Positions 4,220 through 55,876 of a DNA stretch of 64,000 nt are shown in pieces. Positions within the stretch are counted from its first letter, which is position 1; each line of letters starts with the position of its first letter. The position numbers and the translations under genes are program-made. The DNA is from Acidobacteriaceae bacterium (GTDB lineage Bacteria > Acidobacteriota > Terriglobia > Terriglobales > Acidobacteriaceae), in assembly GCA_035944135.1 (NCBI GenBank), contig DASZBM010000010.1, forward strand, positions 310,001 through 374,000. Reading direction: 5' to 3'. Below the pieces are notes generated by a model, which worked only from the letters and a program-made list of their open reading frames with translations, had not been told where the DNA came from and did not search any database.

Positions 4220-4233
4220 CTCTAACCTCTAAT
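4220..4233 (+). repeat. Two-unit heptamer repeat (CTCTAAY)2
   Basis: CTCTAAC followed directly by CTCTAAT in the 68-base gap between two divergent genes. Two units alone could be chance. It is listed because the same CTCTAxx heptamer recurs in longer arrays at 9119 and 55027. Confidence 0.35.
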
Positions 4234-7865: not shown

Positions 7866-10800
7866 ATGCCTCGCGCGCCGCAGACCCAATCCACCAACCA
7901 GCCCAGCACTGCAGCCACATCCGGCCGCAAGCCGCCCGTCTATCTGCTCGACACCATGGCGTTCATCTTCCGCGCCTATCACGCCATGCAGCGCTCGCGC
8001 CCCATGTCCACGCGCACCGGCATTCCCACCGCGGCAACCTACGTCTTCGTCAACATGCTCAACAAGCTGCGTAAGGACTTCAACCCCGAATACCTCGCAG
8101 CCGTCTACGACGTCGGCGCTCCTCTCCATCGCAACGAGCTCGCCGATCAGCTCAAGGACGTAAAAAAGTTCAACATCAAAACCCAGCAGTTTGAAGCCAC
8201 CGAGTACGCCGGCTACAAGGCCAATCGCACCGAAACACCGCCCGACCTGATCCAACAGCAGCCCTACATCCGCCGCGCGCTCGAAGCCTTCCGCATTCCC
8301 ATCCTCTACTACGAGGGCTTCGAGGCCGACGACGTCATCGGCACGCTCTCATGCCAGCTCTCCGCGCTCGGTCATCACGTCTACGTCGTCTCGTCCGACA
8401 AAGACATGATGCAGCTCGTCAACGAGAACGTCTCCATCCTCAACCCCACCAAGGACAATCTCGTCCTCGATCCCGCAGGTGTCGAACAGACTCTTGGCAT
8501 CCCACCCCGGCAAGTCATCGACGTCATGGCCCTCCGCGGCGACTCCATCGACAACATCCCCGGTGCGCCTGGCATTGGCGACAAAGGGTCCGTCGAACTC
8601 ATCCAGCAGTTCGGCACTGTCGAAGCCGCGATGGACGCCGCCGTCAACACGCCCGACGCCATCAAGCGCAAGACCTACCGCGAGTCGCTCGCCAACAATC
8701 GCGATAACATCCTGCTCTCCAAAGAACTCGTCACCATCCACACCGCCGTGCCTATCCAGGCCGATCTTCACGGCATGCGCACGCAACCCGTCGACGCCGC
8801 AGCCGCGCGCGCACTCTTCACCGAGCTTGAGTTCACCACGCTTCTAAAAGAGCTCGCCCCCGCAGCCGACAGCACGCCTGCCACCTTCACGCTCAACGCC
8901 GACGCAAACGAACTCGCACAACTCCTCGCCGAAGCCCGCAAGGAAAATCACCTCGCGCTCGCTCTCGCCGCGACCGCACAAGCTATTTCCGAGGAATCCG
9001 CCGCCGAGCCCGCCGACCCCAACGCAAACCCCGACATCGAGACAGAACCAGAACCAGAAGCACCGCAGACGCTATCACTCTTCGGTCCCGGAACTTCTGA
9101 AACGACGACCGAAACAAACTCTACCCTCTACCCTCTACCCTCTACCCTCTCTCAACCTGACCCAGCCTGCCGTCTAGGCCTGGCCGTCACATCCACGCAC
9201 GCCATCGAAGTCTCACTCGACACGCCCGGCCTGCGCGAAGCTCTCGCCGACCCCACTCTCCCGAAACAAGTCCACGACCTCAAAGCGGTCCTCCGCGCGC
9301 TCGAGCCGCACAACGTCACGCTCGCGGGCCCCATCACCGACGTGATGCTCGAAAGCTATCTCCTCAACCCCACACACGGCTCGCACACACTCGCCGACAT
9401 CGCCGCGCGCACCACCAGCCGCGCGCTCGTCCACCAACCCACCAAAGACCATCCCAACGACCCGAAGCGTCTCCCCGAAGCTGCATCTGCAATCGTTCGC
9501 CTCGCCACCGTGCTCAGCGAGCAGCTCGCAGAGTCCGCTCCCATTACCCACAACATCCCCAAAGATCAGCCCGAACTCGGGGGCGCCGTCACGCCGGAAA
9601 TGCTCTTCGCCGACGAAGAGAAGCCAGCCAGAAGAGCTGCGAAGAAATCCAAAGCGAAATCCACTCCAACCGAATCACAGCTCAACGAGCACTCCACACT
9701 CACCGACGTCTACACCCACATCGACCTCCCGCTCGTCCCCGTGCTCCTCCGCATGGAGCAGGTCGGTGTGCGCGTCAACCTCGACCTCCTCCGCGAGCAA
9801 TCCACGCGTCTCGGCGTGCAGATCGACGACCTCGCCGAGCGCATCTACACCGCATCCGGCCACCGCTTCAACGTCGCCAGCCCCAAGCAACTCGGCGACG
9901 TCCTCTTCAACAAAATGAACCTCCCCAAGCCGCTCAAGTACGGCAAGGGCAAAGTCGTCTCCACCGCGCAGGACGTCCTCGAAGACCTCGCGCCCGACTT
10001 CCCCATCGTCCGCGACGTCCTCGAGCATCGCCAGCTCTCCAAGCTCAAAGGCACATACCTCGACGCGCTCCCGTCACTCGCCGACAAGGACCAACGCATC
10101 CATACCACCTTCAACCAGGTCGGCACTGCGACAGGTCGTCTCTCCTCAACCAATCCCAATCTTCAGAACATCCCCATCCGCACTGCCGTCGGCCGCGAGA
10201 TCCGCGCAGCATTCATCGCCGCGCCCGGCAACCTGCTCATGTCCGCCGACTACTCGCAGATCGAGCTCCGCCTCATGGCGCACTTCTCGCAGGACCCCCT
10301 ACTCCTCGACGCCTACCGCACCGGCAAAGACATTCACACCCTCACCGCCGCCGAGGTCTTCGAGGTCGACCCCGCCACCATGAGCAAAGAGACACGCGCC
10401 CGCGCCAAGGCCGTCAACTTTGGCATCGTCTACGGCATCTCGCCCTTCGGCCTCGCCGCTCAGCTCAACATCGACCAGCGCACCGCCCGCGAGTACATCG
10501 ACAAATACTTCGACCGCTACAAAGGCGTCGCCACCTTCATTGAGCGCACACTCGATCAGGTACGCAGCACGCAGTCTGTCCGCACCGCCTTCGGACGCGT
10601 CCGCCCCATCCCCGACATCCACTCGCGCAACCCCAACCAGCGGGGCTTCGCAGAACGCACCGCCGTCAACACACCGCTGCAGGGCACCGCCGCCGACCTC
10701 ATCAAGCTCGCCATGATCCGCATCGACGCCGAGATCGCCCGCCGCAATCTCCGCTCGCGCATGACCCTCCAGGTCCACGACGAGCTTCTCTTCGACGTCG

Positions 10801-10922
10801 CCCCCGAAGAAGCCGACGAAATGACCGAGCTCGTCCGCACGCAAATGGAATCCGCCGGCGAATTCTCCGTTCCCATCGTCGCCGAAATCGGCCTCGGCCA
10901 AAACTGGCGCGACATCAAATAG
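7866..10922 (+). CDS. polA: DNA polymerase I
   Basis: 1018 aa. Residues about 20-335 form the 5' nuclease domain (LLDTMAFIFRAYHAM; YEGFEADDVIGTLS; SSDKDMMQLV; GAPGIGDKGS). A low-complexity acidic and proline linker (about 375-430) follows, then a 3'-5' exonuclease-like region without the DxE proofreading pair: the expected position reads LALALAATA. Residues 640-1018 are the polymerase domain, with motif A SADYSQIELR (about 793), motif B KAVNFGIVYG (about 848) and motif C VHDELLF (about 969). It is about 90 residues longer than E. coli Pol I, mainly because of the linker, which also carries a 7-bp tandem repeat. The gene is monocistronic. Confidence 0.97.
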   Translation: MPRAPQTQSTNQPSTAATSGRKPPVYLLDTMAFIFRAYHAMQRSRPMSTRTGIPTAATYVFVNMLNKLRKDFNPEYLAAVYDVGAPLHRNELADQLKDVKKFNIKTQQFEATEYAGYKANRTETPPDLIQQQPYIRRALEAFRIPILYYEGFEADDVIGTLSCQLSALGHHVYVVSSDKDMMQLVNENVSILNPTKDNLVLDPAGVEQTLGIPPRQVIDVMALRGDSIDNIPGAPGIGDKGSVELIQQFGTVEAAMDAAVNTPDAIKRKTYRESLANNRDNILLSKELVTIHTAVPIQADLHGMRTQPVDAAAARALFTELEFTTLLKELAPAADSTPATFTLNADANELAQLLAEARKENHLALALAATAQAISEESAAEPADPNANPDIETEPEPEAPQTLSLFGPGTSETTTETNSTLYPLPSTLSQPDPACRLGLAVTSTHAIEVSLDTPGLREALADPTLPKQVHDLKAVLRALEPHNVTLAGPITDVMLESYLLNPTHGSHTLADIAARTTSRALVHQPTKDHPNDPKRLPEAASAIVRLATVLSEQLAESAPITHNIPKDQPELGGAVTPEMLFADEEKPARRAAKKSKAKSTPTESQLNEHSTLTDVYTHIDLPLVPVLLRMEQVGVRVNLDLLREQSTRLGVQIDDLAERIYTASGHRFNVASPKQLGDVLFNKMNLPKPLKYGKGKVVSTAQDVLEDLAPDFPIVRDVLEHRQLSKLKGTYLDALPSLADKDQRIHTTFNQVGTATGRLSSTNPNLQNIPIRTAVGREIRAAFIAAPGNLLMSADYSQIELRLMAHFSQDPLLLDAYRTGKDIHTLTAAEVFEVDPATMSKETRARAKAVNFGIVYGISPFGLAAQLNIDQRTAREYIDKYFDRYKGVATFIERTLDQVRSTQSVRTAFGRVRPIPDIHSRNPNQRGFAERTAVNTPLQGTAADLIKLAMIRIDAEIARRNLRSRMTLQVHDELLFDVAPEEADEMTELVRTQMESAGEFSVPIVAEIGLGQNWRDIK
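9119..9150 (+). repeat. Heptamer array (CTCTACC)4 inside polA
   Basis: Four perfect copies of CTCTACC plus CTCT, lying within codons 418-428 of polA. Read in frame it gives a 7-residue period, Leu-Tyr-Pro-Leu-Pro-Ser-Thr. It falls in the non-conserved linker between the 5' nuclease and the polymerase domains. Gain or loss of one unit would shift the frame; three units would not. Confidence 0.9.
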
Positions 10923-14162: not shown

Positions 14163-14176
14163 AACCGAAAACCGAA
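14163..14176 (+). repeat. Two-unit heptamer repeat (AACCGAA)2
   Basis: AACCGAA twice in tandem, 7 bases after the stop codon of the preceding gene. It is short, but it has the same 7-bp period and the same position just after a stop as the longer arrays. Confidence 0.4.
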
Positions 14177-40747: not shown

Positions 40748-41749
40748 ATGCCGCGGAGTCTCATTTTCGTGCTGATGTTCGCGGTCGCAACTGCCGCGGC
40801 CCAGCAGCCCGCTGCCCCATCGTCCATGGGCACCGTCCCCACCCACGACGCCCTCGTAACCGGCGGCCTCGAAGTCCACGGCGACTCCGCCCGTCTGCTC
40901 ACCAACACCAGCATCACTGCCTACGACCACTCCGCGGCCATCTCCCTCGCTCGCGGCGGAAACGTCCTTGTGTGCGCCACCACCCAGTTCCACCTCCTCC
41001 ACTCCGGCACGGAGAACTCGCTCCTCTTCGGTCTCGACCGCGGCGCCATCGAGCTCCACACCGACTCCTCGCCGCAGGACGTCATCCTCACTCCTGACAT
41101 CCGCTTCACCCTCGAGCACCCCGGCCGCTACGACCTCCGCCTGCGTGTCACGCCCAACGGCGACACCTGCGTCGACAACGCCGGCGCCTCCGCACCCGTC
41201 CTCACACTCGCTGACCCGTTCTCCGGCGCCAGCTATCGGCTCATACCCGGTCAGCACGTCCTCTTCGAGCACGGCAGCCTTCGCGAGGTCGTCGACAACG
41301 AGCGCTCTCCCTGCGGCTGCCCGCCCGCACCCGCGCCTGTCCAGCAAGTCGCCTCCACACCTGACCTGAATCCCGGCCAGCCCGCCACGCCCGCCGTCGC
41401 CGCCGCCGAACACCCTTTTCCAGCGGCCGCCAGCGAAGGCCTCGCACCCACTCCCGCACCCGCACACGTGCCCGAAACCGCGGGCCAGCCGCACACCCAG
41501 GTCGCCACCGTCCTCAGCTACGATGCCGCCCATCCCGATGCCGTCTCACCCGGCACCGTCGAGCCGCCGGCCCCAGCACCGGCAACCGGCTCGACCACCG
41601 GCTCGCCCACGGGCACCGCCGCCGCCACTTCATCCGCGCCGCCGCCCACCCCGCCCGGCGCTCACGATCTCGTCCACGCCCTCGGCCACTTCTTCCGCAA
41701 GCTCTTCCATCCCCACGCCGGAACCTCGCCGCCGCCGCAGCAGAACTAA
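40748..41749 (+). CDS. Secreted FecR-like protein with Pro/Ala/Thr-rich tail
   Basis: 333 aa with a signal peptide (LIFVLMFAVATAAAQ). Residues about 35-185 form a beta domain with RLLTNTSITAYDHSAAISLARGG, SLLFGLDRGAIELHT and RYDLRLRVTPNGDTC that looks like a degenerate FecR domain. Residues about 190-310 are low-complexity Pro/Ala/Thr and probably disordered. The end HDLVHALGHFFRKLFHPHAGTSPPPQQN is basic and His-rich. The stop codon lies in a 20-base tandem duplication. No operon partner is evident, and the role is unknown. Confidence 0.68.
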   Translation: MPRSLIFVLMFAVATAAAQQPAAPSSMGTVPTHDALVTGGLEVHGDSARLLTNTSITAYDHSAAISLARGGNVLVCATTQFHLLHSGTENSLLFGLDRGAIELHTDSSPQDVILTPDIRFTLEHPGRYDLRLRVTPNGDTCVDNAGASAPVLTLADPFSGASYRLIPGQHVLFEHGSLREVVDNERSPCGCPPAPAPVQQVASTPDLNPGQPATPAVAAAEHPFPAAASEGLAPTPAPAHVPETAGQPHTQVATVLSYDAAHPDAVSPGTVEPPAPAPATGSTTGSPTGTAAATSSAPPPTPPGAHDLVHALGHFFRKLFHPHAGTSPPPQQN

Positions 41750-41784
41750 CGCCGCCGCAGCAGAACTAACGCAGCAGAACTAAC
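41731..41784 (+). repeat. 20-base tandem repeat across a stop codon
   Basis: GCCGCCGCAGCAGAACTAAC occurs twice in tandem (41731-41750, 41751-41770), followed by a 14-base partial copy GCAGCAGAACTAAC (41771-41784). The first copy carries the last codons and the TAA stop of the preceding gene. The other copies are non-coding duplicates of that gene end. Confidence 0.92.
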
Positions 41785-41857
41785 CTAGACAGGTAATTCC
41801 TCTCGGCAGTATGCTCCGAAAGATTCCGAACAAATCCGCCACCAACAGAAGGCGATA

Positions 41858-46054: not shown

Positions 46055-46525
46055 ATGCCAACGAAACCCACTGCCGAGCTCCGCGCCCTGGCCGAACAGG
46101 TCGAGCAGCACCTCGCTGCCATTCGCAAAACCATCCGCCAGCCGCTTGAATCAGAGTTCGCCCGTGGCCACCTCACCGGCCCGCAATCCTCGCTCATGGA
46201 GGCCGTTGTCCGCGTGCCCGGCGGCCTCACGCTCAAACAGATCGCCGCCCAGCTCGGCCTCGCACACTCCACCGTCTCCGTTATGGCCGCGCGTCTCGTT
46301 GAAAAGGGCCTGCTCACGCGCCAGCAACACCCAACCGACGGCCGCGCGACCATCCTCATCGCCTCACCTGCGGTCCGCAGCTTCCTTCGCAACCGCATGC
46401 CGAGCCTCACCCTCAGCCCCCTCCTCACCGCACTCAGCAAAGCCTCCGAGTCCGATCGCCGCCAGATCCTCCGCGCGCTCACCAAACTCCGCTCCCTCGT
46501 CGAAACACACAGTCCACGAACCTAG
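46055..46525 (+). CDS. MarR-family transcriptional regulator
   Basis: 156 aa from ATG 46055. The winged helix-turn-helix is clear: GGLTLKQIAAQLGLAHSTVSVMAARLVEKGLLTRQQHPTDGRATILI (about 55-105), with long N- and C-terminal dimerisation helices. It is probably a ligand-responsive repressor of its own operon through the inverted repeat at 45429. The TAG stop codon (46523-46525) lies inside the first unit of a CCTAGAA array, so the C-terminal residues may have been trimmed or altered by the repeat. Confidence 0.9.
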   Translation: MPTKPTAELRALAEQVEQHLAAIRKTIRQPLESEFARGHLTGPQSSLMEAVVRVPGGLTLKQIAAQLGLAHSTVSVMAARLVEKGLLTRQQHPTDGRATILIASPAVRSFLRNRMPSLTLSPLLTALSKASESDRRQILRALTKLRSLVETHSPRT

Positions 46526-46544
46526 AACCTAGAACCTAGAACCT
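46521..46544 (+). repeat. Heptamer array (CCTAGAA)3 over the marR stop
   Basis: Three perfect CCTAGAA units (46521-46541) plus CCT. The first unit contains the TAG stop of the marR gene. The array fills part of the 66-base gap to the acylphosphatase. Confidence 0.92.
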
Positions 46545-46591
46545 CGCCAGCCTTGCCTCGTCTCGCACGATACGAGACACTTAACCGTCCC

Positions 46592-46873
46592 ATGGTTCTT
46601 CACTTCCTTATCCGTGGCCGAGTCCAGGGAGTCGGCTTCCGCTGGTTCGTCCACCGCGAAGCCTCCGAGCTCGGCCTCCGCGGCTGGGTTCGCAACACCG
46701 ACGACGGCTCCGTCGAGGTCGTCGCCACCGGCCCCCGCGAAGATCTCGACGAACTCCGCGCCGAGCTCAAGAAAGGCTCCCGCGGCAGCCGAGTCGACCA
46801 CGTCATCGAACACGAGCTCGACGAATCCGAAGCCGCCAGCCTCCGCGACTTCGAAATCCAGGGCGCCTGGTGA
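46592..46873 (+). CDS. acyP: Acylphosphatase
   Basis: Hydrolyses acyl phosphates such as acetyl phosphate. 93 aa from ATG 46592; an in-frame TTG 13 codons earlier is a poorer start. The signature [16 protein letters not shown] has the phosphate-binding Arg17, and [13 protein letters not shown] has the catalytic Asn35, both at standard positions for this 90-100 residue fold. It lies between two heptamer arrays and 56 bases before apt on the same strand. Confidence 0.96.
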
Positions 46874-46890
46874 GCTTGCTTTTGCCTTTC

Positions 46891-46918
46891 ACTAACCACT
46901 ACCCACTAACTACTCCCA
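46891..46918 (+). repeat. Heptamer array (ACTAACC-like)4
   Basis: ACTAACC, ACTACCC, ACTAACT and ACTCCCA in tandem, 17 bases after the acyP stop and 11 bases before the apt start. The same ACTAACY unit forms the array at 51826. Confidence 0.85.
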
Positions 46919-46929
46919 ACGAAAGCCCC

Positions 46930-47472
46930 ATGTCCGAAAAACAAATCAACTGCGAGCCGCTCAAAGCGCTCATCCGCTCCGTCCCTGACTTTCCGCGCCC
47001 CGGCATCCTCTTCTACGACATCACCACCGTCCTTAAGGACCGCACCGGCTTCGCGCAGCTCATCGACGCCTTCGCGCAGTACTACATCGGCAAGGACATC
47101 GACCTCGTTCTCGGCATCGAAGCCCGCGGCTTCATCTTCGGCCCCGCGCTCGCCTATCGTCTCAACGCCGGCTTCGTTCCCATCCGCAAGCCCGGCAAGC
47201 TCCCCGCGCCCACCGAAACCGTCAAGTACGACCTCGAGTACGGCTCCGACTCGCTGCAGATCCACAAGGACGCCATCCGCCCCGGCCAGCGCGTCATCAT
47301 CGTCGACGACCTCCTCGCCACCGGCGGCACCATGCAGGCCAGCGTCGACCTCGTCGAAAAACTTGGCGGAGTCGTCGTCTCCCTCGGCGTCGCCATCGAG
47401 CTCGACTTCCTCCGCGGCCGCAACCGCTTCCCGCAATACGACGTCCTCAGCCTCCTCCACTACAACGAGTAA
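46930..47472 (+). CDS. apt: Adenine phosphoribosyltransferase
   Basis: Salvages adenine to AMP with PRPP. 180 aa from ATG 46930; upstream in-frame codons run through repeat DNA and are excluded. Visible features are [21 protein letters not shown] near the N-terminus, the [12 protein letters not shown] block and the PRPP loop [14 protein letters not shown] (123-135). Length and order are normal. The heptamer array ends 11 bases before the ATG, so it occupies the position of the ribosome site and no good Shine-Dalgarno is left. Confidence 0.97.
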
Positions 47473-47534
47473 CTTCTTGTGTGTCCTCTGGAGAGACTCA
47501 GTGGTAAACTCCGCGCTGAAATCATGGAGAAGCT

Positions 47535-48734
47535 ATGCGGGCCAGTATTTCCTGCTCCGCAGAGATCGTACCTGTATCTCTGCTGATTTTTCTGTCTTTC
47601 GTCATTGGTTGCGGCGGCGCCAATCAGGCCGGCACTTCAGACAACAGCGGAGGCGGCACCATAACTGGAACGCCGGCGTTTACTCCGCCATCATCTGGCG
47701 ACTACCTCTTGCAGGCCTCCGATGTGAATGGTGTCTTCGTTTCCACCGTAAACACTAGTACGGGGGCAGTCGGTTCACCGGTTAGTCAAGATACAGCTGA
47801 TCTAGAAGGCGGAATGGTTGTAACTCCCTCCAACTCCTTCATGTACTCCATTTCTTCAGGGTATGAAAGCATCAACGGCTATCGGCTCGTCGGTCCTGGC
47901 CTGCAATTGCAAAACTTAGTACCCGGCGCGCCTTTTTTATTGATCGCCGCTCACTCTATTAGCTCGATGGTGATTCACCCCACGGGGAACTTCCTCTACA
48001 TCATCGAAGCCTTTGGGGACTCGTATATCGAGCAGTACAAACTAGATGCCACCACAGGAGCGTTAACGAGCATCGGAATCGCAACCGTATCCTCGCTGTC
48101 CGAATTCTCCGAAGGCGTATTCGATCCTCAGGGGCACTTCTTGTATGTCTGCGACGGGAACAGCATCTACGTTTATCAAATCAACCAGTCGACTGGAGCG
48201 CTGTCCCCAGCGCAAGGTTCACCGTTCACCGTGCCGGCCGGTGGGCAAGCGACACACCTAGGATTCGATAGCAACGGTAGCTTCCTCTACGCGACTCTAT
48301 TCAGCGGAGGCTTAGCGGCTTTCGCGGTCAATGGCTCGACAGGTGCGCTGACGAATGTTGCGGGGTCACCTTTTCCGACCAGCCAAGATGGCAGCACCAC
48401 CGCCTCAATGGCGATCAATACCGCGACAAATACGATCTATGTCAGCAGCTACCCTGATAGCAAAATCACGGAGTTCTCTATCGATGAAACGACCGGCTTA
48501 CCTTCGCTGATTGCCGGATCGCCAGTTGTGGTGCCGGGCTCCGCGTATCAGGACGGATTGGGAAATCTCGTGGTCGATCCGGACGCCGGTGTCCTCTTCG
48601 CCACGATCGGCCCTGTAAAAAACAACATCGTGGCCATGTCGATTGGCAAAGATACCGGTGCGCTCGCGGTGCTGCCGGGAGCCCCCTTTGCTGGTACTGG
48701 TGGGAGAGACATTGTCCATGTGAAGATTCCTTAG
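47535..48734 (+). CDS. Lipoprotein beta-propeller (lactonase/YVTN-like)
   Basis: 399 aa. The N-terminus ends in a lipobox VIGC (about Cys26) followed by a Gly/Ser-rich linker, so it is lipid-anchored. Blade-like repeats such as TNTSTGAVGSPV, DATTGALTSIG, NQSTGALSPAQGSPFTVP, NGSTGALTNVAGSPFP and DETTGLPSLIAGSPV mark a seven-bladed propeller of the 6-phosphogluconolactonase-like/YVTN type. In Acidobacteriota these are mostly surface proteins without tested activity. The gene is noticeably less GC- and C-biased than apt and the dehydrogenase on either side. Confidence 0.82.
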   Translation: MRASISCSAEIVPVSLLIFLSFVIGCGGANQAGTSDNSGGGTITGTPAFTPPSSGDYLLQASDVNGVFVSTVNTSTGAVGSPVSQDTADLEGGMVVTPSNSFMYSISSGYESINGYRLVGPGLQLQNLVPGAPFLLIAAHSISSMVIHPTGNFLYIIEAFGDSYIEQYKLDATTGALTSIGIATVSSLSEFSEGVFDPQGHFLYVCDGNSIYVYQINQSTGALSPAQGSPFTVPAGGQATHLGFDSNGSFLYATLFSGGLAAFAVNGSTGALTNVAGSPFPTSQDGSTTASMAINTATNTIYVSSYPDSKITEFSIDETTGLPSLIAGSPVVVPGSAYQDGLGNLVVDPDAGVLFATIGPVKNNIVAMSIGKDTGALAVLPGAPFAGTGGRDIVHVKIP

Positions 48735-48812
48735 CGGGTCTTTGCGCCTGAAGCTCCCAGTCCCTTCTGATTCTCTCGCTCGCAATTTGCAAACCTCTCA
48801 GGAGATCCCCTC

Positions 48813-49862
48813 ATGCAATCCTTCGGCTACGCCGCTGCCTCCCAATCCGCGCCTCTCGCTCCCTGGTCCTTCACGCGCCGCGAGCCCAACCCCGACGACG
48901 TCGTCCTCACCATCGACTACTGCGGCATCTGCCACTCCGACATCCACCAGGTCAATGGCGACTGGGGCAACAAGCTCTTCCCCATGGTTCCTGGCCACGA
49001 GATCGTCGGCCGCGTCACCGCCGTCGGCTCCGCCGTCACGCGCTTCAAGCCCGGCGACCTCGCCGCCGTCGGCGTCATCGTCGAAAGCTGCATGCACTGC
49101 GCCAACTGCCGCGCCGACCTCGAAGTCTACTGCTCCGACGGCGGCTGCCGCGACACTTACAATGCCACTCTCCGCGACGGCACCCGCACCTACGGCGGCT
49201 ACTCCGACACCATCGTCACGCCCCAGCACTTCGTCCACACCCTCAAGCCCGGCATCGACCTCGCCGCCACAGCGCCACTCCTCTGCGCCGGCATCACCAC
49301 CTACTCACCGCTCCGCCACTGGGGCGCCGGCCCCAACAAAAAAGTTGGCGTCGTCGGACTCGGCGGCCTCGGCCATCTCGCCCTCAAGTTTGCTCACGCC
49401 TTCGGCGCCCACGTCGTGCAATTCACCACATCCGAATCCAAAATCGCCGACGCCAAGCGCCTCGGCGCCGACGAAGTCGTCCTTAGCAAAGATGCCGGCG
49501 CCATGCAGAAACACGCCGGCACCTTCGACTTCATCCTCGACACCGTCTCTGCCCCGCACGACATCGACGCCCTCCTCGCGCTCCTCAAGCTCGACTCCAC
49601 GCTCTGCTCCGTCGGCCTTCCTGACAAGCCCATCTCCGTGCAGCCGTTCTCGCTCGTCGCGAACCGCCGTTCCCTCGCCGGCTCCGGCATCGGCGGCATG
49701 AAAGAAACCCAGGAGATGCTCGATTTCTGCGCCGACAACAACATCGTCGCCGACATCGAACTCACCACCTACGACAAACTCAACGAAGCCTACGACCGCG
49801 TCCTCAAGAACGACGTCAAATACCGCTTCGTCCTCGACAACAAATCCCTGAGAAAGAGCTGA
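48813..49862 (+). CDS. Zinc-dependent alcohol dehydrogenase (YahK/CAD type)
   Basis: NADP(H)-dependent alcohol/aldehyde reductase of the cinnamyl-alcohol-dehydrogenase branch. Its 349 aa have catalytic zinc ligands C40 (YCGICHSD) and H62-E63 (GHEIVG), structural zinc cysteines C93, C96, C99 and C107, and the NADP-binding GLGGLGHLALKFA. It closely follows the E. coli YahK pattern, which reduces a broad range of aldehydes. Monocistronic between the lipoprotein and TonB-C genes; in vivo substrate unknown. Confidence 0.94.
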   Translation: MQSFGYAAASQSAPLAPWSFTRREPNPDDVVLTIDYCGICHSDIHQVNGDWGNKLFPMVPGHEIVGRVTAVGSAVTRFKPGDLAAVGVIVESCMHCANCRADLEVYCSDGGCRDTYNATLRDGTRTYGGYSDTIVTPQHFVHTLKPGIDLAATAPLLCAGITTYSPLRHWGAGPNKKVGVVGLGGLGHLALKFAHAFGAHVVQFTTSESKIADAKRLGADEVVLSKDAGAMQKHAGTFDFILDTVSAPHDIDALLALLKLDSTLCSVGLPDKPISVQPFSLVANRRSLAGSGIGGMKETQEMLDFCADNNIVADIELTTYDKLNEAYDRVLKNDVKYRFVLDNKSLRKS

Positions 49863-49909
49863 TAGAAAACTCTTGCTCTTCCTTTCTTCGGGTTGCAAAC
49901 TTCACAGGA

Positions 49910-50515
49910 ATGCAAATCCAAAGACTGCTTCCCACACTCACGCTCGCTCTCGCTGCACTCTCTCCGCTCCAAAGTGTGGCATCGCCGGCGTCCGCGTTAC
50001 AAGCGGACTCCCTCGCCAATAAAGCTGTCGAACTGGATCCTGTCCTTATGGATACAGACAGTGCGAATGGCGCTAAAGGAGAGGTCGTGCTCTCCCTCGA
50101 CCTAGACAGCAAGGGAGGCGTCGCGCACGCCAAAGCAATCTCAGGCCCAAAGGATCTCGCCGCTGCCGCGATCGCCGACGCCAAAATGTTTCGCTATCCC
50201 GAACAAGCGAACGCCTCTGGCATTACTCAGCACATCTTGTTTCGCCGTGGCGCCGATGAGGTCCGGATGGTCACTCCCGACTACCTGCCCATGGCAAAAG
50301 CTAAGGCGGCCGGTCTAGTGGAACTCGTTGCTACGGTCGGGCCGGATGGGCACGTCGTAGATGTCACCGTCGCCCGGGGTCATCCACTCCTGCGCAACCA
50401 AGCAGAGAACGCGCTTCGCCAATGGGTCTTCGCGCCTGTGTTGAAAGACGGTGCACCCGTTCAGTGCCATGCAATCGTGAGGTTCAACTTCGACAGCAAC
50501 CGATTCCCGAACTGA
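49910..50515 (+). CDS. Secreted TonB C-terminal-domain protein
   Basis: 201 aa. It has a signal peptide (LTLALAALSPLQSVASPASA) rather than the membrane anchor and proline-rich spacer of true TonB. Two TonB-C-like strand-helix units are visible, about 58-100 (GEVVLSLDLDSKGGVAHAKAISGPKDLAAAAIADAKMFRY) and about 135-200 (GLVELVATVGPDGHVVDVTVARGHPLLRNQAENALRQWVFAPVLKDG). It is likely periplasmic and of unknown function. It ends 1 base before the stop of the convergent lactonase gene. Confidence 0.8.
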   Translation: MQIQRLLPTLTLALAALSPLQSVASPASALQADSLANKAVELDPVLMDTDSANGAKGEVVLSLDLDSKGGVAHAKAISGPKDLAAAAIADAKMFRYPEQANASGITQHILFRRGADEVRMVTPDYLPMAKAKAAGLVELVATVGPDGHVVDVTVARGHPLLRNQAENALRQWVFAPVLKDGAPVQCHAIVRFNFDSNRFPN

Positions 50516-50516
50516 G

Positions 50517-51710
50517 CTATACCCACAACGTAAACATCGGCGTCGTCGCCGCAAACGTCTTCGGCCTCACGCCGAGCCGTCCCGTCGCCGCGTCATGCGA
50601 AAACACCGTCACGTTCCCCGGATCACCGTGAGCACCCTGGTTGCAGCACACCAGCCACTTCTTTGCAGGGTCGAACGCGATATACCGTGGCACCTTCCCT
50701 CCGCTGCTCAGCTTCTGCATCTGCGTCAGGTACCCGCTCTCATCAATCCGCCACACCGTAATCGTGTCTTCGCCCCGCGTGCACGAGTACAAAAACCGCG
50801 CATCCTCGCTGATCACAATCTCGCACGCCGTCTGGCCCTTCGTGCTCATGCCCTTGTCCAGCGTCGACACCACGCTGTTCTCACGCAGCTTCATCACTGG
50901 TGCGCCGCCCTCGACACTCCAGTCATACACATCGATCGTGCAATCGATCTCATGAATGCAGTACACCCACCGTCCATTCGGATGAAACGCCACATGCCGC
51001 GGCCCCGACCCGGCACGCGCCTGCACGCGAATCGGCACGCGCACATAGTCTCCCTCGCCCGGCCCCACAGGAAACACGAGAATCACGTCATCGCCAAGAT
51101 CGCACGCCAACACATATCGATTGCCCGGAGCGATAGTGGCGCAATGAATATGCGCCGCGTCCTGTCTGTCCGTCACCGGCCCGTGCGTCGCCTGCGTGTA
51201 TTTGAAAACCCCAATCGCCTGCGCCAGCGCGCCCACATTTGTCACGCGAAAGGCCGCGAAGCTTCCACCCCCATAGTTCGCCACAAACGCCATCTCGCCC
51301 GTTGGGTCCACCGACACGTAACACGGCCCATTACCCTGTGACCCCACCTTGTTCAGCGGTTGCAGTTCCACCAACCCATCCACCGTAGGGTTCACCTGAA
51401 AGCTCGAGATCGCCGCGCCATCGCCGCTCACGCCATTCACCGCATACACCACGGGCAACGACGGATGCTTCGCCAAAAATGACGGCCGCTCCGCTGCTCC
51501 TGCCAGCTCCACCGCGCCCAGCGTGCCCGTCGCCGCATTCCACGGCGCGCGGTATACGCCTTTGCCGGTGTCCGAGCCCAGCAGCACGCACGAGCCCTTC
51601 CCGCGCGCCACAAACCGACCGGTCGCCTGCGCCGCTGCCATCCCACGCAGCGCAAACGGCAGCGCCACCGCCCGTCCAACAAACTGCCGCCGGCTATATC
51701 CCGCCACCAC
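50517..51710 (-). CDS. Tat-exported lactonase-family beta-propeller
   Basis: 397 aa. Start at GTG 51710 (second choice GTG 51707), just after AAGGGGG, because it gives a Tat signal AGYSRRQFVGRAVALPFALRG. The longer upstream frame is read through a dispersed repeat. The mature protein has the seven-bladed 6-phosphogluconolactonase (YbhE/Pgl) pattern: VLLGSDTGKGVYRAPWNAATGTLG, GPCYVSVDPTGEMAFVANYGGGSFAAF, DLGDDVILVFPV, GPRHVAFHPNGRWVYCIHEID, ISEDARFLYSCTRGEDTITVWRID. Homologues hydrolyse lactones or are uncharacterised; periplasmic location argues against a pentose-phosphate role. Confidence 0.86.
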   Translation of the reverse strand: MVAGYSRRQFVGRAVALPFALRGMAAAQATGRFVARGKGSCVLLGSDTGKGVYRAPWNAATGTLGAVELAGAAERPSFLAKHPSLPVVYAVNGVSGDGAAISSFQVNPTVDGLVELQPLNKVGSQGNGPCYVSVDPTGEMAFVANYGGGSFAAFRVTNVGALAQAIGVFKYTQATHGPVTDRQDAAHIHCATIAPGNRYVLACDLGDDVILVFPVGPGEGDYVRVPIRVQARAGSGPRHVAFHPNGRWVYCIHEIDCTIDVYDWSVEGGAPVMKLRENSVVSTLDKGMSTKGQTACEIVISEDARFLYSCTRGEDTITVWRIDESGYLTQMQKLSSGGKVPRYIAFDPAKKWLVCCNQGAHGDPGNVTVFSHDAATGRLGVRPKTFAATTPMFTLWV

Positions 51711-51725
51711 GCCCCCTTGAGATCC

Positions 51726-51769
51726 GTCATCCTGAGCGTAGCGCCCCAAGCGCGAAGTCGAAGGACCCC
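51726..51769 (+). repeat. Dispersed GTCATCCTGAGC...GAAGGACCCC element
   Basis: Starts GTCATCCTGAGCG, contains GCGCGAAGTCGAAGG and ends GACCCC. I recall this motif as a very common acidobacterial intergenic repeat. It lies 16 bases upstream of the start of the minus-strand lactonase gene, so that gene's promoter must overlap it or lie beyond it. Confidence 0.7.
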
Positions 51770-51825
51770 GAAAACCGCTAGCCTCACCAACACCCTGAAA
51801 CCTTTTCAACCAGGGCCTGTCTTCA

Positions 51826-51856
51826 ACTAACTACTAACCACTAACTACTAACCACT
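51826..51856 (+). repeat. Heptamer array (ACTAACY)4
   Basis: ACTAACT, ACTAACC, ACTAACT, ACTAACC and then ACT, an alternating pair repeated twice (14-bp super-period). It ends 5 bases before the stop of the minus-strand gene at 51862. Same unit as the array at 46891. Confidence 0.92.
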
Positions 51857-51861
51857 CGCTC

Positions 51862-52362
51862 TTACGTCCGCTCGCCTGCTGCGCCCGGCGGCAGATTCTC
51901 GCCAACCGGCAGCCCCATCGTGCTCGCCAGGGTATCCGGCTCGCCCGGCAGTTTGAAGTCCAGCTCCGTCGGATGCGCATCGGAGTTCACCACCGGCAGC
52001 GCCGGCAGCCTCTCCACGCGGCCATCGATCTCCTTCACCACCGCGGCCACATGCTCCAGGACTTCATCCACAGTCATCGTGTAGAACTCGCGGCCGTTGT
52101 CATAGCCGTTTTCAATCGACTGCCTCAGGTACCGCCCCGCCGCCTGCGCTGCGAGATAATCCGTGATCACCTTTCCGTTGCGCCGCTTCTGCTCCACCCA
52201 CGCGTCATTCGGCATGGCAATCCACAGCGGCCGCCCATTCACGGCAAATCGAATATCGGTGGCATCGGCGTGTCGCGTCGCGATTGCGACCACGGTACCC
52301 TTCCACACGCAGTGCTGCGGCTCTTCGGTCCAGCGGTCTGTCGCTACAAAGTCTTCATACAT
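51862..52362 (-). CDS. Conserved hypothetical protein
   Basis: 166 aa from ATG 52362, with a GTG/ATG option 13 codons earlier. No signal peptide. The N-terminal half (about 1-75) is beta-rich, with WKGTVVAIATRHADATDIRFAVNGRPLWIAMPNDAW, and the C-terminal half is helical and acidic (VDEVLEHVAAVVKEIDGRVERL). No motif is recognised. It ends next to a heptamer array and is divergent from the DUF481 gene. It could be in one transcript with the lactonase gene downstream. Confidence 0.6.
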   Translation of the reverse strand: MYEDFVATDRWTEEPQHCVWKGTVVAIATRHADATDIRFAVNGRPLWIAMPNDAWVEQKRRNGKVITDYLAAQAAGRYLRQSIENGYDNGREFYTMTVDEVLEHVAAVVKEIDGRVERLPALPVVNSDAHPTELDFKLPGEPDTLASTMGLPVGENLPPGAAGERT

Positions 52363-52501
52363 GGCACTCTCAAGACTATCGACCCGCTCACCACCACGCA
52401 ACCCGACACGTCCTCATTGTTGAGGGGGCTGCTGTACGATGACATTCTCAGCAAGGGCCATCCAGTCGCATCTATCTAGGTAATCCATTTGGAGGCCAAT
52501 C

Positions 52502-53638
52502 TTGCGTTCCCTGCGAACGATCCCCGCCCTCGCTCTGACCATCCTCTTCGCCGCCACAGCTCTCGCCCAAAAGCCTGCACCACAGCCAGACATCCTCATC
52601 TTCACCAACGGCGACCAGCTCACCGGTCATCTTGAGCGCGCCGCAGGCGGCTCCGTTGTATTCAAAAGCGACATGGCCGGCGAGGTCACCATATCCCTCG
52701 ACAAGGTGAAAGAGATTCGCTCCGCCGGCAGCTTCTCCATGCTCAAGAAAGGCCCGCCCAGCAAGACCAACCTCGTAGGCCAGGGCCAGATCAGCGTAGC
52801 CGAGGGCAACGTCTCCGTTACGCCGCCGGCGCAGCCGCCCGTCACGCTGCCCGTCAAAGACGTCGGCTACCTCATTGACACGCCTACCTACGATCGCGAG
52901 GTCCATAACGAAATCAAACTCACGCAGGGCTGGACCGGAGCCGTCACCGCCGGCGCTACCTTCGTCCGCTCCACGGACAACGACACCGTCTTCACGGCCG
53001 GCCTCGCTCTCGCGCGCCTCATCCCCACGGTCACATTCCTGCCGCCGCGCCAGCGCATGACCCTTAACGTGATCGAAACCTACGGCAAAGCCACCTCCGC
53101 CGTGATCCCCCAGACCGTTCCGCCATCGCCTGCCGCCATTACCAAGACCAGCATCTTTCACGCCGACGGCGAACATGACTGGTACTTCACCCCCCACCTC
53201 TACGGTCTCGCCAACCTCTCCTTCGACCACAACTTCGCCCAGGGCCTCTCGCTCCAGCAACTCTACGGCGGCGGCATCGGCTGGACCCCGTTCGAAACCG
53301 CCCGCCATCAACTCGACCTCAAGGCCGACATTCACTACGAGCGCCAGAACTTCTTCGTCGCCTCCTCGAACGTCGACCTCATCGGCACCATCTTCGGCGA
53401 AGCCTATAGACGCACGCTTCCCCGCAAAATTGCCTTCACCCAGACCGCCGAGTACATCCCCTCCTGGAACCACCCCACCGACTACTCCGCCCTGTTCACC
53501 GCCGGCTTCGTGCTTCCCACCTGGAAGCGCCTCGGCGTCACCTTCAACGCCACCGACAACTACCTCCACAACCCGTCACCCGGCTACAAAGCCAACTCGC
53601 TCCAGTTTGTCGCTGGTGTGAACTACGCTTTCAAGTAA
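52502..53638 (+). CDS. DUF481 outer-membrane protein
   Basis: 378 aa starting at TTG 52502, 6-7 bases after GGAGG. After a signal peptide (IPALALTILFAATALAQ) there is a short beta module (about 30-120; ILIFTNGDQLTGHLERAAGGSVVFKSDMAGEVTISLDKVKEIRS) seen ahead of DUF481 domains. A 12- or 14-strand beta-barrel (about 130-378) follows, with alternating aromatic strands and a terminal FVAGVNYAFK ending in aromatic-basic residues. DUF481 (YdiY-like) proteins are salt- or acid-induced outer-membrane proteins; the function is unresolved. Confidence 0.87.
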   Translation: MRSLRTIPALALTILFAATALAQKPAPQPDILIFTNGDQLTGHLERAAGGSVVFKSDMAGEVTISLDKVKEIRSAGSFSMLKKGPPSKTNLVGQGQISVAEGNVSVTPPAQPPVTLPVKDVGYLIDTPTYDREVHNEIKLTQGWTGAVTAGATFVRSTDNDTVFTAGLALARLIPTVTFLPPRQRMTLNVIETYGKATSAVIPQTVPPSPAAITKTSIFHADGEHDWYFTPHLYGLANLSFDHNFAQGLSLQQLYGGGIGWTPFETARHQLDLKADIHYERQNFFVASSNVDLIGTIFGEAYRRTLPRKIAFTQTAEYIPSWNHPTDYSALFTAGFVLPTWKRLGVTFNATDNYLHNPSPGYKANSLQFVAGVNYAFK

Positions 53639-53769
53639 CGTCGCGCGATAAACGACGAGCCTGTGCGAAATGTTGTCAAGTCCGGAAGCGCTTCAAACCC
53701 GCATAAACACTGGCTCAAAATGAGCGGAATTAATTACCTCCGATTTCGTAAAATAGAGATATAGACAAA

Positions 53770-53818
53770 AAGCTCAAAGCTGAAAGCTCATAGCTCGTAG
53801 CTGACCGCTCCGAGCTCT
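53770..53818 (+). repeat. Degenerate heptamer array (AAGCTSA), about 7 units
   Basis: Consecutive 7-mers AAGCTCA, AAGCTGA, AAGCTCA, TAGCTCG, TAGCTGA, CCGCTCC and GAGCTCT keep the GCT core in register for 49 bases. AGCT is self-complementary, so the array can also fold on itself. Confidence 0.88.
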
Positions 53819-53851
53819 CACGCGCGTGGACCGCACGCACTGCGCAAGTTG

Positions 53852-53891
53852 CTGATTCCAGATATTTTCCCCGCAAAGCCTCTGGAATCAG
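53852..53891. repeat. Inverted repeat upstream of the beta-barrel gene
   Basis: CTGATTCCAGA (53852-53862) and TCTGGAATCAG (53881-53891) are perfect 11-bp inverted repeats with an 18-base loop, followed directly by GATTTTGCA. The order hairpin, GATTTTGC and GGGGGAGGG about 90 bases before the ATG is also seen at 15905-16048 upstream of the FecR gene. Confidence 0.7.
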
Positions 53892-54048
53892 GATTTTGCA
53901 TTGTTGGTCCACTCGCAACTCGCCTGTTTTCAAGAATTTGACACAATACGCAGGGGGAGGGAGATACCTCCCTCGCTCCAATGTTCTAATGGAACGATGC
54001 GAGCACTTTATCGCTCGCCACGTTCTGTACTGCAGGAGTTTGCCCTCG

Positions 54049-54741
54049 ATGGATCTTCGGAAGTTCGCGGCTGGCTGCACCGCCGCACTCGCAGCGGTCC
54101 TCATCTCCACCGCTGCCGCTGCCCAAACCCCCACGACTCGCCACGAAACTAACTCCAGCCGCGAAGCTCGCATCCAGCGCACGATCAAGGACACCTACAC
54201 CCACCGCTGGGAAGTCTTCGGCGGCGGCGCCTACATGCGCTTCCACTCCGGCGAGTACACGCAGAGCAACAACGAGGTCACCTGGAACCTCGCGCCGCAC
54301 TACTACCTGAACCCCAAGCTCGCCATCCTGGTCGACGCCCGCGGCATGTTCGGTAACGGCAAACCCCTCCGCAACGGCAACCAGGTCCTCAACCCGAACC
54401 CGCAGATCAACGAGTACGCCTTCACCGGCGGCGCCAGCTACCGCTTCTACTCCAATCTGCGCTTCGCCCTCAGCGCGGAAGGTGCCGGCGGCATCGTCGA
54501 CGGCAACTTCTCCGGCGCCTCCAAGGGTCTCAACTACACCGAGACTGGCTTCTGGCAGGACGCCGTGCGCCCCGCCGCCGTCTTCAACCTCGCCGCCGAC
54601 ATCAACCTGTTCCCGAACCTCGCGTTCCGCGTGCTGCCCACATACGTCGTGACGACGTTCACCAGTCCCTCTGGCGGCTCTGTGCAGGGCAATCTCGGCG
54701 TCAACGCCGGAATCGTCTACCGCTTCGGCCGCCAGAAGTAA
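54049..54741 (+). CDS. Outer-membrane beta-barrel protein
   Basis: 230 aa from ATG 54049. The start is supported by CAGGAG upstream and a clean signal peptide (LRKFAAGCTAALAAVLISTAAAAQ). The mature chain is an 8-stranded barrel pattern of alternating strands (RWEVFGGGAYMRFHSG, NEVTWNLAPHYYLNPKLAILVDARGMFG, EYAFTGGASYRFYSNLRFALSAEGAGG, LNLAADINLFPNLAFRVLPTYVVTTF) and a final VNAGIVYRFGRQK with the aromatic near the C-terminus. It resembles the OprF/Surface-antigen-like porin-fold families common in Acidobacteriota. Role unknown. Confidence 0.8.
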   Translation: MDLRKFAAGCTAALAAVLISTAAAAQTPTTRHETNSSREARIQRTIKDTYTHRWEVFGGGAYMRFHSGEYTQSNNEVTWNLAPHYYLNPKLAILVDARGMFGNGKPLRNGNQVLNPNPQINEYAFTGGASYRFYSNLRFALSAEGAGGIVDGNFSGASKGLNYTETGFWQDAVRPAAVFNLAADINLFPNLAFRVLPTYVVTTFTSPSGGSVQGNLGVNAGIVYRFGRQK

Positions 54742-54777
54742 CCTTCTCGACTCCCACCCCAGGCGTACCATAGAGGT

Positions 54778-55029
54778 ATGTCGAAGGGCTGGGAGTCTAA
54801 GAACGTCGAAGAACAACAGGCTCAGAGCGCAGCGCCAAAGCCGCAGGGCGACCCTGCCGACGCAGCCTCAGCCGCCGACCGCAAGCGCCGCATCCAGGAC
54901 CTCGAGATGCAGCGTGAGCGCGTTCTCTCCGAGCGCACCTCCAGCCCCCACCGCCGCTCCGCCCTCGAACTCGCCCTCGCCACCATCGAGCGCGAGCTCG
55001 AACAGCTCGGCTGGTCCATCAAGATTTAG
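54778..55029 (+). CDS. Small coiled-coil protein of unknown function
   Basis: 83 aa. The Ala/Pro/Gln-rich N-terminal 30 residues are probably disordered. The rest (about 35-80, DRKRRIQDLEMQRERVLSERTSSPHRRSALELALATIERELEQLGW) is charged and forms two helices likely to pair as a coiled coil. There are 36 bases between it and the beta-barrel gene. Its TAG stop (55027-55029) is the start of a heptamer array. Acceptance rests on codon use and helical pattern. Confidence 0.6.
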   Translation: MSKGWESKNVEEQQAQSAAPKPQGDPADAASAADRKRRIQDLEMQRERVLSERTSSPHRRSALELALATIERELEQLGWSIKI

Positions 55030-55103
55030 AGAGCAGAGGATAGAGCGTAGAGGAGTGGGCGAAGCCGCTTTTACTCTCTACCCTCTACTGTCTACCCTCT
55101 AGC
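55027..55103. repeat. Inverted pair of degenerate CTCTACC heptamer arrays
   Basis: The left arm (55027-55056) is the complement-sense TAGAGNN array. The right arm (55076-55103) is CTCTACC, CTCTACT, GTCTACC, CTCTAGC. The arms are complementary at about 20 of 26 positions and could form a long hairpin between two convergent genes. The left arm includes the stop codon of the 54778 gene. The right arm includes the stop and the last five codons of the SDR gene. Confidence 0.88.
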
Positions 55104-55876
55104 TTTCCCCTCGTCAGCACGAACGGATTCGCCTGCGCCGTCGGCGTCAGCACCACCTGCTGAATCATCACGTGCGGCGGGCGCGTCGCGGTCCACACAA
55201 TCACATCGGCGATGTCTTCCGGTAGTAGCGGCTCGACGTTCTCATACGTCTTGGCCGCGCGCTCCTCGTTGCCGCGGAATCGCACACGGCTGAAGTCCGT
55301 CTTCACCATCCCTGGATCGACCGAGGTCACGCGCACCGGCGTGCCGTTCAGGTCCAGGCGCAACCCGTCGCTGATGAACCGCTCCGCAGCCTTCGTCGCG
55401 CAATACACACCGCCGTTCGGGTACGCGATGTGACCCGCAATCGATCCCAGGTTGATGACGTGCCCACTGCCGCGCTCCACCATGCCCGGCACCACCGCAC
55501 GCGTCACATACAACAGCCCTTTCACGTTGGTGTCGATCATCTCCTCCCAATCCTCGATCGCATCGAGGTACAGCTTCGTGAGGCCGCGGCTCAATCCCGC
55601 GTTGTTCACCAGCACCTCAATCTGCTTCCACGCTTCAGGAAGCGAATTCATCGCGCTCTCGACCTTGCTGTTGTCGCGTACATCCAGTTCGAAGATGTGC
55701 ACATCCTGGGCACCCAGGCTGCGGAGCTCTTCCTGCATCGCGCTCAACTTGTTTAAACGCCGGCCGCACAACAGCAGCTTCGCGCCTTCGCGCGCAAACG
55801 CCTTCGCGGTCGCCTCGCCGATGCCCGCCGTCGCGCCCGTCACAAACACAATCTTGCCTGCCAGAGAGTAGCTCAC
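55085..55876 (-). CDS. SDR-family NAD(P)-dependent oxidoreductase (YdfG-like)
   Basis: 263 aa. Rossmann motif TGATAGIG (13-20), NNAG (91-94), catalytic S145 and Y158-x-x-x-K162 (YCATK). R39-R40 after the second strand favours NADP. The pattern FVTGATAGIGEATAKAFAREGAKLLLCGRR and a late AKTYENVEPLLPEDIADVIVWTATRPPHVMIQQVVLTPTAQA are typical of YdfG, the 3-hydroxy acid/L-allo-threonine dehydrogenase. The last five codons and the stop derive from heptamer repeat DNA, which implies the C-terminus was extended or replaced by the array. Confidence 0.92.
   Translation of the reverse strand: MSYSLAGKIVFVTGATAGIGEATAKAFAREGAKLLLCGRRLNKLSAMQEELRSLGAQDVHIFELDVRDNSKVESAMNSLPEAWKQIEVLVNNAGLSRGLTKLYLDAIEDWEEMIDTNVKGLLYVTRAVVPGMVERGSGHVINLGSIAGHIAYPNGGVYCATKAAERFISDGLRLDLNGTPVRVTSVDPGMVKTDFSRVRFRGNEERAAKTYENVEPLLPEDIADVIVWTATRPPHVMIQQVVLTPTAQANPFVLTRGKLEGRQ

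Follow-up and report, generated by a model that had tools for sequence, protein, structure and literature searches.

The 64,000-nucleotide stretch G000:C10:310001-374000 (the window), from the genome of a soil bacterium of the Acidobacteriaceae (labelled G000; 4.43 Mb, 10 contigs), contains seven short arrays of tandem 7-bp units (heptads). Such arrays are real and are found across the whole genome. In related genomes, orthologous spacers carry other units or none, and some sites are kept. Each species has its own words, the layout is shared, and runs of heptads also occur inside polA, the gene for DNA polymerase I; the arrays therefore look more like small inserts than stutter repeats. The interpretation that we prefer, at slightly less than even confidence, is that they represent tiny dispersed repeats, which were inserted at numerous sites and have persisted at those where little harm results. 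The best matches of the apt gene of G000 among named genomes (records very near the window are possibly excluded) come from Acidobacteriaceae, including Edaphobacter and Granulicella, and its genus, judged from these matches, is probably Edaphobacter.

Excess of 7-bp arrays

Arrays in the window were detected with Tandem Repeats Finder and a lag count. The genome sample consists of 33 stretches, each 20 kb long and placed blind to arrays (660 kb, ~15% of G000). In the spacers of this sample, tolerant arrays of period 7 number 16, versus 0.3 in order-3 Markov shuffles, and those of periods 5, 6, 8, 9, 10, and 11 number 3, 4, 3, 3, 3, and 1, respectively. A peak at 7 bp over the neighboring periods, the check attached to an original prediction made from the window alone, is thus present. 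Perfect non-coding heptamers in the same 660 kb include 20 runs of at least 2 copies (7.2 expected) and 3 of at least 3 copies (0 expected). Scaling from 16 per 660 kb would give ~100 arrays in the G000 genome. Within the window, where all arrays have a period of 7 or 14, lag-7 matching runs of at least 8 bases number 4 versus 1.6 in order-2 Markov shuffles, and those of at least 17 bases number 2 versus 0. Non-coding DNA holds 46 of the 52 arrays from 41 own-genome sources; arrays in polA are exceptions to this rule.

Period-7 arrays also exceed shuffles in G007 (26 versus 0.8), in G001 (16 versus 0.5, with 12 hexamer arrays besides), in five further genus members pooled (16 versus 0.8), and in 67 loci from other named Acidobacteriaceae (31 versus 1.8). 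In 13 Edaphobacter-like named loci, the excess is not clear (2 versus 0.4). Heptads are therefore widespread yet patchy. Degenerate 6-bp arrays of the AAAGGC / TTGCCN type share some of the heptad spacers (L040, ~1340-1440; L043, ~1890-1990).

Array anatomy and unit families

The collected set comprises 144 non-coding arrays with genes called on either side. These are not fully independent: both arms of inverted pairs are counted, and two orthologous G002/G022 duplicates are included. The set also contains the arrays of 8 own-genome sources and of 9 related-genome loci that were picked for TAGAGGG hits, both of which groups are excluded from the test of unit sharing within and between genomes. 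The array length rounds to 4 units in 56 arrays and to 5 units in 48 (together 104/144). The motif [TCG]AG is found on one strand of the consensus unit in 120 of 136 arrays (8 arrays from the picked G002, G022, and G010 loci were dropped), compared to 57% for shuffled units. The strand carrying this motif in each unit, e.g., TAGAGGG, is referred to here as the AG strand. Read on it, the first unit in many arms is of the CAG or GAG type, TAG units follow, and the last words are, e.g., TAGAGAA, TAGAAAG, or TAGTGAA.

The most common units are CTACTCC/CTATTCC in G007, CAGTTCT/CAGTTGT in G001, and GTTGTTGGGTGTT-like ones in G027, whereas G000 has TAGAGGG, TAGTGGT, and several minor families. Units at different sites are alike (at most 1 change) in 27% of 600 within-genome pairs versus 5.8% of 5062 between-genome pairs; random units are alike in 1.9%, and the within-genome level is reached in none of 500 label shuffles. 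Of the 28 genus members, 15 have the TAGAGGG 19-mer (at most 1 mismatch); no copy occurs in the 33 genomes from outside the genus. The view that different units share one design is borne out. No run of three G is present in the consensus units of the TAGTGGT, CAGTTNT, and CAGAGAT families.

Mismatches between adjacent units cluster at fixed (wobble) positions that are characteristic of each family, with a chi-square p of <1e-9 in each of four families. At positions 1 to 7, the counts are 6, 0, 0, 3, 6, 21, and 23 in TAGAGNN of G000 (15 arrays); 2, 0, 0, 0, 14, 0, and 5 in TAGTNGT (10 arrays); 13, 10, 0, 7, 4, 1, and 27 in TAGGGAR of G007 (16 arrays); and 10, 2, 0, 0, 2, 18, and 1 in CAGTTNT of G001 (8 arrays).

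Polarity and pairing

Gene edges were taken from a simple gene caller of our own, so distances to starts are approximate. Arrays with an assigned strand lie no more than 30 bp from a gene edge in 93 cases. In 81 of these, the AG strand points out of the gene and into the spacer, irrespective of gene direction, with 35/35 at starts and 46/58 at stops (Fisher, 1.5e-13). The original prediction had placed the arrays at gene ends. This holds for 5 of the 7 window arrays (at 46518, 46890, 51826, 55027, and 55070), which overlap a stop codon or lie within 20 bp of one, but not as a restriction to ends, as 35 of the 93 edge arrays are at starts. Lone arms are likewise polar (60/71), with 30/30 at starts and 30/41 at stops (p 0.004). 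A general purine skew of spacer edges is ruled out as the source of this pattern, since array-free edges are unskewed (0.51 and 0.50 purine).

A reverse-complement partner in the same spacer (score of at least 10) is found for 35 of the 144 arrays, versus 2.3% in unrelated spacers and 4% in other spacers of the same genome. Among spacers of 40 to 400 bp, arrays are present in 17/268 convergent, 67/1094 tandem, and 15/319 divergent ones. An SD-like (Shine-Dalgarno-like) word precedes 13 of 38 array-near starts and 719 of 1924 others; these rates, which do not differ, rule out a reading in which arrays accompany missing Shine-Dalgarno sequences.

Orthologous spacers

Among 54 syntenic spacers, arrays occur in both species in 3, in one species only in 4 and 4, and in neither in 43 (Fisher, 0.039). 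In all 3 doubly occupied spacers, the units differ between the species. A fourth pair, recognized by eye (L239/L263), has one family in both, with one copy below threshold. The spacer between the acylphosphatase gene and apt, compared at plus-strand loci, carries ACTAACC in G000, CTAGCCC in G015 (L076), and TCTACTG-type units in G007 (L078), and it is no longer than 5 bp in seven genus members (G002, G003, G010, G012, G021, G023, and G025). G015 has another copy of apt (L101), for which the spacer is 102 bp long and free of heptads. Heptads of several units are detected upstream of apt in 11 of 80 named loci. The convergent spacer of the window at 55029-55085 measures 10 bp or less in 9 of the 13 relatives read, and 3 relatives have long spacers with no detected heptads. 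Its right arm is kept in G018, and G025 shows a reversed match to the left arm at that place.

The ~50- to 90-bp stretches at L252 (~2841-2940) and L248 (~1600-1690), with dozens of matches per genome in G002, G010, and G022, are unrelated dispersed repeats.

Heptads inside polA

The polA gene of the window (7866-10922) has its array at residues 417 to 428 of 1018, in the linker that joins the 5'-3' exonuclease domains to the exo domain. Heptads are found in this linker in 5 of 26 loci (own locus included, one locus truncated), and the other 21 have none at the threshold used. The units are CTCTACC in G000, CAGGGCT in G022, AACTCAA and CTCTATC in G025, CCCGCAA in G007, and an inverted CAGGGCC pair plus CCCTAAT in G017. 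Among 18 loci in which both anchors are found, the loop that follows the LLAEAR motif is 9 nt long in 13 and 24 nt in one; it reaches 63 nt in G002, G007, and G022 and 96 nt in G017 and is much longer in G025. The detected heptads of G007, G017, and G025 fall within these loop inserts. On both sides of the G025 insert (L327) lies the 8-bp direct repeat GAAGCCCG, which resembles a target duplication. Local repeat growth does not yield an inverted pair such as that in polA of G017, and a regulatory site within polA is unlikely.

Arrays of the window

The 7-bp arrays at the main positions of the original prediction are all recovered (Table 1); the GAACCTA and ACTAACY arrays are also recorded at 46518-46544 and 51826-51856. 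The array at 9119 is inside the coding sequence rather than at a gene end, and the one at 53769 is 130 bp away from the stop on its left. The original prediction had also listed two-unit traces, of which that at 14163 is no more than expected by chance, and that at 4220 is below every threshold applied.

Table 1. Heptad arrays of the window
Array	Position	Strand	Location
CTCTACC x4.6 (AG strand TAGAGGG)	9119..9150	-	In frame within polA, in the stretch that joins the 5'-3' exonuclease part to the exo/polymerase part
GAACCTA array (AG strand TAGGTTC)	46514..46546	-	Contains the TAG stop of the MarR-family gene 46055-46525
CACTAAC array (AG strand TAGTGGT)	46890..46917	-	Acylphosphatase-apt spacer, 12 bp ahead of the apt start
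ACTAACY array (AG strand TAGTNGT)	51824..51860	-	1 bp off the stop of the minus-strand gene 51862-52362
Degenerate AAAGCTC array (AG strand ambiguous)	53769..53802	+	Long spacer, 130 bp past the stop on the left
TAGAGNN, left arm of inverted pair	55027..55054	+	First TAG is the stop of the gene 54778-55029
CTCTACC, right arm of inverted pair	55070..55101	-	Overlaps the final codons and stop of the short-chain dehydrogenase gene 55085-55876

Two other repeats were seen. The gene that ends at 41749 has its stop spanned and duplicated by a 20-bp and a 14-bp direct repeat (CGCAGCAGAACTAA, 41730-41788). A recurrent spacer stretch, GTCATCCTGAGCG...GAAGTCGAAGGA, found at ~51700-51770 of the window, at ~1770 of L043, and at ~9430 of L049, resembles repetitive extragenic palindromic (REP) sequences by eye.

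Possible origin of the arrays

If the arrays are dispersed inserts, the inserted arm would consist of ~4 to 5 head-to-tail heptads (~30 to 38 bp), lone or opposite an inverted partner. The copying of arms, possibly in the form of an inverted pair, might be the work of an enzyme or of a process coupled to replication, and arms would be retained in short spacers beside start or stop codons and in disordered protein linkers. Slippage by 7 bp would be secondary, merely adjusting the copy number, and the polarity could be the footprint of inverted pairs combined with selection against the AG strand ahead of starts. This reading is favored by the recurrence of each genome's own units across many unlinked loci, by the excess of inverted partners, by the tendency of arms to have distinct first and last units, by different units at orthologous sites, and by spacers and a polA loop that are near-empty in relatives and array-bearing in some species. 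The mobile satellite, one of the options offered by the original prediction, is supported as an option.

Several observations weigh against such inserts. Some sites are old: G000 and G002 share TAGAG arrays in the L036 spacer, whose flanking genes we take to be recR and ybaB and whose flanks are 80 to 86% identical, and 3 of 5 aligned G022/G002 sites are alike unit for unit. (Of the remaining two, one differs by a one-unit 7-bp indel plus substitutions [L248/L290], and in the other the left arm is kept and the remainder is rearranged.) The polA array of G000 is not a clean insert, because it sits in a second part of the linker, whose length varies across species. No target-site duplication was found at the arrays, and no transposase is linked to them: the two Y1_Tnp loci of G000 (3.3 kb, with ~1.5 kb around) are free of heptads, and movement driven by REP-associated tyrosine transposases (RAYTs) was rejected on that ground. 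One of these two Y1_Tnp hits (L301) has an internal TGA. Finally, recognition or selection is suggested by the wobble positions and by the polarity that lone arms show; a heptad-reading protein would explain both better.

The omega repressor of plasmid pSM19035 reads unspaced heptads. The arrays might, by analogy, be site arrays for such a protein, whose specificity drifts while its sites turn over jointly, hence the differences between species; we regard this as possible but rather doubtful. Wobble positions that are fixed and common to several loci, the usual size of 4 to 5 units, a gene-edge polarity that extends to lone arms, and the unit-for-unit conservation at 3 of the 5 G002/G022 sites all agree with it. 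However, it does not account for heptads in polA with units that differ between species or for several unit families within one genome, and no protein was identified, none having been searched for.

Slippage in 7-bp steps was proposed for bacterial heptamers in 2007, as cited in PMC4692102. Here, replication slippage would favor 7-bp steps on local seeds, and shared units would reflect mutational bias, which seems unlikely as the main process. Slippage was among the mechanisms of the original prediction, and that suggestion survives in part: it is consistent with the L248/L290 indel between G022 and G002 and with the fact that other periods also somewhat exceed shuffles, as do the hexamer arrays of G001. 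Slippage is at most a partial answer, since alone it gives neither the sharing of genome-specific units at unlinked loci nor inverted partners nor mismatches restricted to fixed positions.

Another reading, very unlikely, is that the inverted pairs form hairpins that end transcripts or protect mRNA and that lone arrays are decayed halves of such pairs. In its favor, the inverted pair of the window folds with z-scores of -2.8 and -5.7, one per strand, and four further inverted-pair sites fold with z-scores of -4.0 to -9.2 (six folds at five sites in all); GC-rich hairpins are flanked by some arms. On the other hand, a strong hairpin on the inner side of the array is found in 15 of 134 cases (11.2%), barely more than after array-free stops (9.4%; 5.0% for all array-free spacers), which rules out an association with terminators. 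Further, no partner is detected for approximately three-quarters of the arrays, and lone arms near starts keep their polarity in 30 of 30 cases.

Other candidates were rejected. A stop-codon cassette (TAG in all frames) is ruled out as a general reading because CAGTTCT-type arrays of G001 (e.g., L228) follow stops and have no stop on that strand. Quadruplex formation is ruled out as a general reading by the families without G-tracts, in which the same layout is therefore possible without quadruplexes. The RNA-templated expansion envisaged in the original prediction is not supported, as no PF00078 reverse-transcriptase match is found in G000, while the control profile search has matches in 3 of 14 named genomes; the result bears on PF00078 enzymes and not on other polymerases.

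Relation to known repeats

The heptamers of filamentous cyanobacteria known as short tandemly repeated repetitive (STRR) sequences share the period and the dispersed, intergenic distribution of the arrays described here and apparently differ in unit sequence. REP sequences and bacterial interspersed mosaic elements (BIMEs) are palindromes moved by RAYT transposases. Like the heptad arrays, they are short, dispersed, species-specific, mostly intergenic, and often in inverted pairs; in contrast, the arms here are heptad arrays, and the two Y1_Tnp loci of G000 lack them. Simple repeats of phase variation change copy number between close strains; of the five aligned G022/G002 sites, one differs by a single unit, three are identical in their units, and one is rearranged beyond its left arm. 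A likeness to heptad repeats of other bacteria is borne out; the particular likeness to STRR sequences drawn by the original prediction is tentative. Among open-licence PMC papers, the searches listed none whose listing points to heptads in Acidobacteria.

In Xanthomonas and Nostoc, PMC4692102 describes GGGAATC and GGGGA(C/T)T heptads that are mostly intergenic, usually have four units, show heterogeneity at fixed positions, form 70 and 75 convergent pairs, and lie nearer to the open reading frame (ORF) on the 5' side (28 versus 160 nt). They are interpreted there as quadruplex formers for which the paper shows no role. The arrays of this study are similarly tandem, mostly intergenic, usually of four or five units, wobbling, convergently paired, and polar, with a 7-bp excess, mostly non-coding positions, and the G strand directed away from the nearest ORF. 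However, the Xanthomonas and Nostoc repeats use a single G-rich word, whereas here there are several words per genome, sister species differ, arrays occur within polA, and the consensus units TAGTGGT, CAGTTNT, and CAGAGAT appear from their sequences to lack quadruplex-capable G-tracts.

TAACTGA repeats of Beggiatoaceae, Cyanobacteria, and Bacteroidetes are heptads beside start codons, with 7-nt indels between close strains (PMC4679880). In Flexibacter litoralis, 12 of 14 sets are forward to the start and one is reversed after a stop, an orientation matching the one seen here, as do the start-side position and the 7-nt indels. Unlike the present arrays, they consist of a single word, and in a Microcystis sample their orientation is mixed (6 forward, 8 reverse, and 8 between stops among 22). 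The adjacent genes rarely have canonical ribosome sites according to the same source, whereas SD-like words near the arrays here are undiminished. TAACTGA is absent among the listed consensus units of G000, G007, and G001, the closest being AACTGAG and AACTGAC in G001.

Taken from the text of these papers, the arrays appear to be the same kind of repeat as reported in Xanthomonas, Nostoc, and Beggiatoaceae. Here, units are replaced between species, and there is no requirement for G-tracts. A bolder generalization, which we consider improbable, is that the heptads of Acidobacteriaceae, Xanthomonas, Nostoc, and Beggiatoaceae all come from one kind of unrecorded DNA-writing or transposition process, which would lay down 4 to 5 heptads, often as inverted pairs, and read the array geometry rather than one sequence, with the words of each lineage drifting jointly. 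Such ideas are testable at particular loci, namely, spacers and a single polA loop that are empty in some related genomes and filled in others. The two heptad papers (PMC4692102 and PMC4679880) each treat a single word and give it a word-specific explanation, quadruplex or regulator site. In the arrays described here, one word can stand in for another while the layout stays constant: period, copy number, polarity, and pairing persist while units differ, sometimes at one site, and the question moves from the binding partner of a word to the maker of heptads.

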